This document shows, one piece after another, positions 27,138 to 28,241 of a stretch of 37,131 bases of DNA. The DNA lies in contig JACQKT010000027.1 in assembly GCA_016204355.1 (NCBI GenBank), forward strand, positions 1 through 37,131. The letters run 5' to 3'. The notes under the pieces were generated by a model. It was not told where the DNA came from. It made no database searches and worked only from the letters and a program-made list of their open reading frames with translations. A program made the position numbers and the translations under genes. Source of the DNA: Candidatus Liptonbacteria bacterium (GTDB lineage Bacteria; Patescibacteriota; Minisyncoccia; UBA6257; 2-01-FULL-56-20). Within the stretch, counting starts at the first letter, position 1. Each line of letters starts with the position of its first letter.

Positions 27138-27163
27138 TTTGTGTTTAAATTTTACGCTTATGA

Positions 27164-27200
27164 CATTCTAACATTCTGCAGAATGTTAGAATGTTTTTAA
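27164..27200 (+). terminator. Perfect palindromic terminator
   Basis: CATTCTAACATTCTG (27164-27178) is followed directly by its complement CAGAATGTTAGAATG, then TTTTTAA. Confidence 0.75.
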
Positions 27201-27223: not shown

Positions 27224-27232
27224 TGCTATAAT
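27224..27232 (+). promoter_or_regulatory. Extended -10 of the candidate small RNA
   Basis: TGCTATAAT is a perfect extended -10. Transcription would begin near 27239. No good -35 is visible. Confidence 0.6.
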
Positions 27233-27238
27233 TAATTC

Positions 27239-27330
27239 GACTCTTGGTGGGTCGCCGCCAGATTCGGTTAGCGTTACACACGAAGTACCTGCCTATAACG
27301 CGTCGAAGCAGCACTGGCGGCCTTTTTTTA
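27239..27330 (+). ncRNA. Candidate structured small RNA (~92 nt) with intrinsic terminator
   Basis: Three nested stems can be drawn: GCCGCCAG (27254-27261) with CTGGCGGC (27314-27321), TTCG (27263-27266) with CGAA (27304-27307), and GCGTTA (27271-27276) with TAACGC (27296-27301). The apical loop is 19 nt and contains ACACGAAGTACCTGCC. The outer stem runs into seven T residues, so it doubles as a terminator. There is no ATG in the transcript. It lies between a terminator and the convergent xerD end and matches no RNA family I can name (not tRNA, tmRNA, SRP or RNase P). Confidence 0.6.
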
Positions 27331-27332
27331 CT

Positions 27333-28241
27333 TTACGATTTCCGGCGGCGGCCGTGAAAACTTTTATGTATCTCGCGGAGCTCCTTATTGGTGAGATGAG
27401 TGTAAACCTGTGTCGTTGAAATATTGGAATGGCCGAGAAGCGATTGAACCGAGCGCAAATCGGCGCCGTTGAGCAACAGATCGGTTGCGAATTGGTGACG
27501 CAGCTGGTGCGGCGTAACATGGTCGGCGATTCCGGCTTTGCGGCGATAAAAGTTCACGAGCCGCTGGACAGTGCGCGGAGTTATACGACCAATAACTTTT
27601 GACTCATGACTTTTAACACTTGACCCCTTTGTTAAACTTACAAACATTGCTTCGTCTGCATCGGGCCGCTTGTCGAGATAATTTTTAATCGCTTTCTTCG
27701 CCCTGTCGGAAAGAAAAACTACGCGTAATTTGTCTCCTTTGCCGCGAACGGTTATTTCGCCGCGCTCCAAATCTATGTACCGGCTCAAGGAACAAAGTTC
27801 GGAAATACGAAGACCTGTTGAAAAAAAAGTTTCAAGAATCGCTTTATCGCGGATAGAACGCAAATCGGAGCCGCTCGGCGCCGAAAGCAGGCGCTCGAGG
27901 TCGCCGTATTCGATTATCAATATCTGCCTGCTCGGCGTTTTCGGCAGTTCTATTTTCTCCGCTGCCAGGGTTTTTATGTCGCGCTTGGAAAGATATTTCA
28001 AAAAGTTTCTGATGGCGATGACATAATAATTCTGCGTTATTTTTTTCAGATTTTTGCGCGCGAGCCCGATGCGGAAATTTCTTACAGCATCATCCGTAAT
28101 ATCGGAAGGGGATTTTATCTTTGTGGATGCCAAAAATTCTTTGAGATAGTGCTCGTAATTTTCCCGCGTTTTCGGCGACCGGTTCTTTTCGATTTCGAGG
28201 TAATCCAAATAGTCCTTTAAAAGCGATTGGATATCGGACAT
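27333..28241 (-). CDS. xerD: Tyrosine recombinase XerC/XerD family
   Basis: The enzyme resolves chromosome dimers at dif-type sites. All catalytic residues are visible: R145 in STGLRISEL, K168 in VRGKGDKLR, H245 and R248 in HQLRHQF, H271 in LLGHSN, and nucleophile Y280 in TTQVYTHLT. The N-terminal SAM-like domain covers residues 1-95. The 302-residue length is slightly above normal because residues about 206-218 are an extra polar segment encoded by repeat-like DNA. ATG 28241 follows an extended -10 by 6 bases. Many CPR genomes have a single Xer; whether this is XerC, XerD or XerS is not decided. Confidence 0.93.
   Translation of the reverse strand: MSDIQSLLKDYLDYLEIEKNRSPKTRENYEHYLKEFLASTKIKSPSDITDDAVRNFRIGLARKNLKKITQNYYVIAIRNFLKYLSKRDIKTLAAEKIELPKTPSRQILIIEYGDLERLLSAPSGSDLRSIRDKAILETFFSTGLRISELCSLSRYIDLERGEITVRGKGDKLRVVFLSDRAKKAIKNYLDKRPDADEAMFVSLTKGSSVKSHESKVIGRITPRTVQRLVNFYRRKAGIADHVTPHQLRHQFATDLLLNGADLRSVQSLLGHSNISTTQVYTHLTNKELREIHKSFHGRRRKS
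27588..27626. repeat. AAAAGTCATGAGTCAAAAGT-type tract in frame in xerD
   Basis: On the minus strand the tract has AAAAGTCATG followed by AGTCAAAAGT. It encodes SSVKSHESKVIG, which lies between two well-conserved parts of the catalytic domain and is not expected in XerC/D. Confidence 0.55.

Follow-up and report, generated by a model that had tools for sequence, protein, structure and literature searches.

Stand-alone structured RNAs of bacteria have been catalogued by comparative genomics (PMC2864571), and these RNAs are likewise intergenic, with a promoter and terminator of their own and a covarying structure. The RNA gene described here differs from them in that it has no match in Rfam 15, has so far been found only in Patescibacteria (CPR bacteria), and is built from helices P1-P3, Pa and Pb with a GCAGY bulge and a UUGUACACA linker. 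Its full members share the size class of 6S RNA (RF00013) and would likewise be stand-alone transcripts, but they lack the single rod with a central promoter-like bubble, occur sporadically and not generally, and give no match to the 6S model. Bacterial SRP RNA (RF00169, RF01854) is of similar length, but the CPR RNA has neither its GGAA apical loop nor its symmetric loop, and the two show no match at E values up to 10. CPR bacteria are a large and mostly uncultured part of bacterial diversity, and no catalogue devoted to their regulatory RNAs came up in a limited search of the open literature. A covarying RNA gene without an Rfam match is a defined object for metatranscriptomes and for cultivable CPR-host systems.

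The locus and its counterpart in a sister species

The window, i.e. the whole 37,131-nt stretch of DNA that was analysed, comes from a contig of a 0.69-Mb CPR metagenome assembly. The 92-base stretch at positions 27239-27330 of its forward strand is a genuine small RNA gene that belongs, in shortened form, to a family of structured RNAs, and direct reading of the window sequence places its start near 27239. It is preceded by an extended -10 promoter, TGC-TATAAT (27224-27232), in register with TGG-TATCTT in the genome of a sister species (G001) and with most promoters of the family, whereas the -35 is weak. The six-base discriminator TAATTC (27233-27238) follows the family pattern TAAYYY, the corresponding sequences being TAACTC in G001 and G322, TAATTT in G352, TAACTT in G277 and TAATCT in G003. 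The RNA begins with a 5' hairpin, GACUC-UUGGU-GGGUC (27239-27253; DNA GACTC-TTGGT-GGGTC), which is supported by the predicted fold and by the changes in G001 and occupies the place where full members have P1-P3. Next come the 5' strand of helix Pa, GCCGCCAG (27254-27261), assigned from the fold and the family alignment, the 5' strand of helix Pb, UUCGGU (27263-27268; DNA TTCGGT), taken from the fold and belonging to a helix that covaries, and a genus-specific inner hairpin (27271-27301) seen in the fold, in which GCGUUA pairs with UAACGC (27271-27276/27296-27301) around an apical loop of 19 nt (27277-27295). The 3' side consists of the Pb strand GUCGAA (27302-27307; DNA GTCGAA), indicated by covariation, the asymmetric bulge GCAGC (27308-27312), recognized by comparison with the family motif GCAGY, and the Pa strand CUGGCGGC (27314-27321; DNA CTGGCGGC), which according to fold and alignment doubles as the terminator stem. 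The T7 tract of the intrinsic terminator was read directly at 27323-27329, and all members have a T-rich tail after Pa.

The minimum free energy fold (-28.9 kcal/mol) has the shape given in the preliminary description, and the extended -10, the helices, the 19-nt loop and the stem with its T7 tract are all present as reported there, as is the 5' hairpin in addition. Three helices are indeed nested, and the 5' hairpin adjoins them instead of lying inside. The folding energy of the window RNA is within the range of chance (z -1.34), 19 of 200 shuffled sequences folding as well. A simple promoter and terminator scan of the window missed both elements, owing to the weak -35 and the length of the terminator loop.

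The upstream neighbour is an alpha/beta hydrolase gene (PF08538/PF12146; 26247-27137, forward strand) and the convergent neighbour encodes a xerD-type tyrosine recombinase (27333-28241, reverse strand), the nearest named relatives of which are in Liptonbacteria, Harrisonbacteria and Wolfebacteria genomes. Between the hydrolase gene and the RNA promoter, a perfect 32-nt palindrome, ACATTCTAACATTCTGCAGAATGTTAGAATGT, with a short T tract (27163-27199) is probably the hydrolase terminator. This bears on the simplest reading of the locus, in which the stem and T tract only end hydrolase transcripts or separate convergent genes. Such a reading would suit a strong G+C stem with a T7 tract beside the convergent xerD stop codon, and most weak matches to the models described below are ordinary terminators. 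But the hydrolase has its own palindrome and T tract ahead of the RNA promoter, and a terminator has no need of a conserved bulge, Pb, a promoter, a 5' domain or phylum-wide covariation. Covariation and the P1-P3 domain make this explanation unlikely, and it is given hardly any credence here. In the window, dnaK and grpE, named by sight from the protein sequences, lie near the RNA, as they do at the uncertain locus of G312.

A blastn search found 19 of 20 matching bases in G001, the one other genome of the genus searched. The locus is syntenic, with hydrolase and xerD genes matching those of the window on either side of the RNA, and the promoters and start sites align in register (TGCTATAATTAATTC/GACTC in the window and TGGTATCTTTAACTC/GGCCC in G001). 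The 5' hairpin GACUC/GGGUC is GGCCC/GGGCC in G001, with one double-sided and one single-sided change that leave every position paired, and the compensatory change converts A-U to G-C. Pa is identical in both, and GAAGNAGCN is common to their 3' strands. The interior is about 35 nt long in the window and about 85 nt in G001 with no common loop sequence, and the inner hairpin GCGUUA/UAACGC of the window is kept neither in G001 nor in the wider family. At the position of the linker, G001 reads GUGUACACAACGC and the window UGCCUAUAACGC. The G001 copy folds at z -4.0. Most other blastn matches (L003-L030) were dismissed as chance, being mostly inside coding sequence. Among the matches listed, none placed the RNA beside xerD in other genomes of the window's family, where tRNAs or unrelated sequence were found; adjacency to xerD, pointed out in the preliminary description, holds for the window's genus and is a local feature, not a family-wide one. 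The G001 promoter sits in an inverted repeat, ACCAAACTGAC...GTCAGTTTGGT (L110, about 50-100 bases upstream of 1501), for which the window has no counterpart.

A family of structured RNAs in Patescibacteria

A covariance model of the core common to the window and G001 (R1) was searched over 244 genomes of the order and gave one new strong match (36 bits, E 5.6e-6), in G183, a genome of another family with other neighbouring genes. The G183 locus shares features beyond those in R1: it has an inner hairpin, a promoter-like sequence and the linker UGUACACA, which occurs in G001 as well. In the alignment of these three RNAs, 6 of 24 pairs have double-sided changes and Pb covaries. The model built from them (R2), with which the window, itself a training member, scores 61.2 bits, matched G153, G003 and G242 within the order and G322, G362, G352, G470, G439 and G277 elsewhere in the class. 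A third model, built from 12 members (R3), added G875 from another class of the phylum at 45 bits. G029, a genome from the window's family, has a tandem pair that came up with a full-length profile; the two copies (L125:1310-1616) lie between infC-like and radC-like genes, and the first retains the 5' domain and has a broken Pa and no T tract. Matches in G282 (38 bits) and G312 (31 bits) have no clear 5' domains and were left as uncertain, and those scoring lower resemble ordinary terminators.

The same RNA is found in about a dozen other genera, from the window's own family to another class, in unrelated gene neighbourhoods. Its distribution is patchy: the order has at least 7 carriers among 244 genomes, the class sample outside it 6 and the phylum sample beyond 1, these counts being lower bounds as the large searches used strict filters and models of the 3' domain. 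In G024, a near-complete genome of the window's family in a single contig of 840 kb, R3 found no copy over 760 kb, nor did inspection of the secA surroundings or a descriptor scan, and the idea of a universal RNA near secA was rejected since G024 has no detectable copy. Viral contigs gave no match to the core pattern and 12 candidate matches to a short P2 pattern; phage and plasmid records gave no match to the RNA family. No Rfam 15 family reached its gathering score and no meaningful match appeared at relaxed E values (up to E 10), in keeping with the preliminary description of a self-contained candidate small RNA of no family that could be named, and a limited open full-text literature search found no description of these RNAs. 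As far as Rfam 15 shows, they are the first recognized members of a CPR RNA family, a new family of an ordinary kind, the stand-alone structured RNA.

Full members are about 150 nt long. Helix P1 encloses P2, with the loop UGGCC or UAGCC, and P3, usually followed by CGAC; then come GGCY, Pa enclosing Pb, and the T-rich tail. The consensus of Pa is GCCRCNAGA/UCUNGYGGC and that of Pb GUCNGG/CCNGAC, with the 3' bulge GCAGY between the two helices, and Pa also encloses an inner hairpin, Pc, and usually a single-stranded linker, UUGUACACA. The GGCY before Pa can pair with the P2 loop, the variable pair being G-U, G-C or A-U with one mismatch, in G153. This pairing is a probable pseudoknot; a permutation test gave 2682/5000, the GGCC/GGCU alphabet being too poor for such a test. 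The window and G001 have no P1-P3, and hence no P2 loop, immediately downstream of the promoter; in their place, the sequence leading into Pa forms a local hairpin. What the window does have is the family core, i.e. the Pa and Pb helices, the GCAGY bulge and the T-rich tail, and a promoter of the form TGN-TANNNT-TAAYYY in register with the RNA start. It is assigned to the family by this core alone, as a truncated form, and the unit of about 92 nt first described, present as such in the window, is not the typical form, which carries the 5' domain. The linker, kept in G001 and lost in the window, is also absent from G875 and is common in the family without defining it.

In the 12-member alignment (A6), 95.1% of cells are paired and 16 pairs (47 cells) have double-sided changes, a result matched by none of 500 shuffles, and structures slid along the alignment left only 38-47% paired. 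Compensatory changes in relatives, which the preliminary description had named as its test, are thus present both across these 12 members and in the 5' hairpin of G001. The A6 counts lean toward the model to which the alignment was fitted, and support was therefore also checked outside it. Helices P1 and P2, which are in no model, are complementary in 96% and 92% of positions, respectively, compared with 51% and 70% when partners are permuted, and 0 of 5000 permutations reached the observed covariation in either helix; the two helices were parsed manually. When the window's genus was left out, a sequence-only profile found the window site at E 9.3e-8, the next match being at 1.2, and G001 at E 3.8e-12. 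A full-length profile, again without this genus, matched the window at 4.7e-7 among all collected loci. On control DNA taken from member genomes (400 kb), R3 scored 20.5 bits at most. The stems contain 24 G-U and 3 A-C combinations, which favours the described strand, with the reservation that the models permit G-U on that strand and so bias the count. The RNA is set above chance by its syntenic homologue at z -4.0, the family-wide covariation and the match to the leave-genus-out profile.

Gene context and comparison with known RNA classes

At each of the 15 loci examined, the RNA is followed on its 3' side by an opposite-strand gene, the stop codon of which is within about 65 nt. This gene differs in nearly every member (recombinase, HIT, polA, mnmA, NUDIX, ychF and others). 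At none of these loci does the RNA lie upstream of a co-directional gene, as a riboswitch or leader would; with a convergent 3' gene of varying identity, the RNA is therefore a stand-alone gene and not a leader. The proximity of the RNA 3' end to an opposite-strand stop codon in all members would also fit a cis-antisense RNA directed against the 3' end of the convergent transcript, here that of xerD. This is very unlikely, as a gene that changes from member to member cannot explain a conserved structure, and the stems favour the RNA strand.

A NUDIX hydrolase gene (three cases) or a gene for a base-excision glycosylase of the UDG, Fpg or MutY type adjoins the RNA in 6 of about 12 lineages (L211, L213/L114, L214, L215, L216 and L218), compared with about 1-2% of control ORFs, an excess that was spotted after the fact and is only suggestive. 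The gene secA, named by sight, lies on the 3' side of the RNA, no more than a few genes away, in G242, G470, G875 and the uncertain G282 (L213, L217, L220, L221), and in G875 the RNA is flanked by secD and secF, also named by sight from the protein sequence.

The Ffh M-domain (SRP_SPB, PF02978) was absent from 11 genomes of the order (G000, G001, G021, G030, G018, G014, G024, G022, G042, G056 and G047), and no SRP RNA was found by RF00169 (6 genomes) or RF01854 (11 genomes), the controls being positive, so that the order seems to be without a signal recognition particle. A divergent form of a missing housekeeping RNA (SRP RNA, 6S RNA or tmRNA) might be sought in the new family, given that neither 6S nor SRP RNA was detected in the genomes tested. 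This is extremely unlikely: without an Ffh M-domain there is no SRP partner, no resemblance to SRP RNA, 6S RNA or tmRNA appeared in Rfam even at E up to 10, ARAGORN made no tmRNA or tRNA call for the RNA, and a copy undetected in near-complete G024, of the same family, is unlike a housekeeping RNA. SRP RNA is excluded as an identity by the missing model match and the missing M-domain, and 6S RNA (no RF00013 match) and tmRNA (no match) are not supported. A GAAGCAGC string in the window recalls the SRP loop strand. As the tested genomes appear to be without SRP and show no 6S RNA, any conserved stand-alone RNA in them is worth explaining.

Proposed mode of action and the linker

The reading favoured here, and considered fairly probable, is that 27239-27330 is a non-coding RNA gene, a 5'-truncated and fast-evolving form, confined to the window's genus, of a sporadic Patescibacteria/CPR family of trans-acting RNAs recognized by protein. 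The RNA would be transcribed from its own promoter-like sequence, transcription would end in the Pa stem, and the product would act in trans. A protein would recognize the Pa/Pb junction with its GCAGY bulge, making this a regulatory or housekeeping RNA of the RNP type, and the window form would retain the protein-binding core, having shed the 5' domain. Recognition of the junction is favoured because junction and bulge are common to the window form and all others; to judge from this conservation, protein binding there is most likely.

Given the loss of the linker motif and of P1-P3, the window copy may be partly decayed. A stronger version, in which the RNA of the window's genus is a decaying relic, still transcribed and no longer doing the family's job, would account for the loss of P1-P3, pseudoknot and linker together, and the defective first copy of the tandem pair in G029, in the same family, offers a parallel. 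It appears unlikely, considering that both species of the genus retain Pa, Pb, the bulge, the promoter and the covarying 5' hairpin and that the sister copy folds well below its shuffles.

A second mode of action to be weighed against protein recognition is that of a trans-acting base-pairing small RNA, such as those of the Hfq/ProQ type, an exposed strand of which would pair with mRNAs. In the window this strand would be the apical loop, while full members would use the UUGUACACA linker. The RNA has its own promoter and terminator, a 19-nt loop is exposed in the window, and most full members have a conserved unpaired linker, and for these reasons the idea retains some weight, although it is rather unlikely. 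The loop, proposed in the preliminary description as the target-pairing part, turned out to be the least conserved element, which not even the sister species shares; the window and G875 lack the linker motif, and a scan of rRNA loci showed no complement to it, which also led to rejection of the linker as an antisense to rRNA. Conservation lies in the helices and the bulge more than in a seed.

The linker has a resemblance of its own, to the decoding-centre strand of 16S rRNA, residues ~1388-1403 (E. coli numbering). Its consensus, CCUUGUACACAACGCC, is identical to the universal 16S sequence CCUUGUACACACCGCC at 15 of 16 positions, and the strand of the next helix resembles 1404-1407. In contrast, the 16S rRNA of these genomes themselves reads UCUUGUACUCACCGCC, with UACUCACC in place of UACACACC. 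Nothing else in the RNA is similar to rRNA, and neither the window copy nor G875 has the motif. With a weight matrix of the linker the universal 16S sequence scored 24.2 bits, above all members but one, and over ~4.5 million positions the best site outside the family was a 16S decoding site; other sites were within 1.5 bits, and rRNA loci made up 2.3% of the bases searched. Local alignments of the whole RNA to 16S loci were mostly within the range of shuffles.

These data could be read as a free-standing mimic of the ribosomal decoding centre, in which the linker and the start of Pb reproduce 16S ~1388-1407 as a decoy for a binder of that site. The decoyed partner would then be an assembly or hibernation factor, a methylase or an inhibitor, and the window's genus would be losing the decoy function, G001 having kept the linker and the window being without it. 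Such mimicry is improbable and was set aside, since the alignments are mostly at shuffle level and the genomes' own 16S rRNA differs from the linker; it remains a lead. The 16S rRNA at L163, L164, L167 and L170 reads UACUCACCGCCCGUC, the universal sequence being UACACACCGCCCGUC, and several 16S genes of these CPR genomes appear to be split by insertions.
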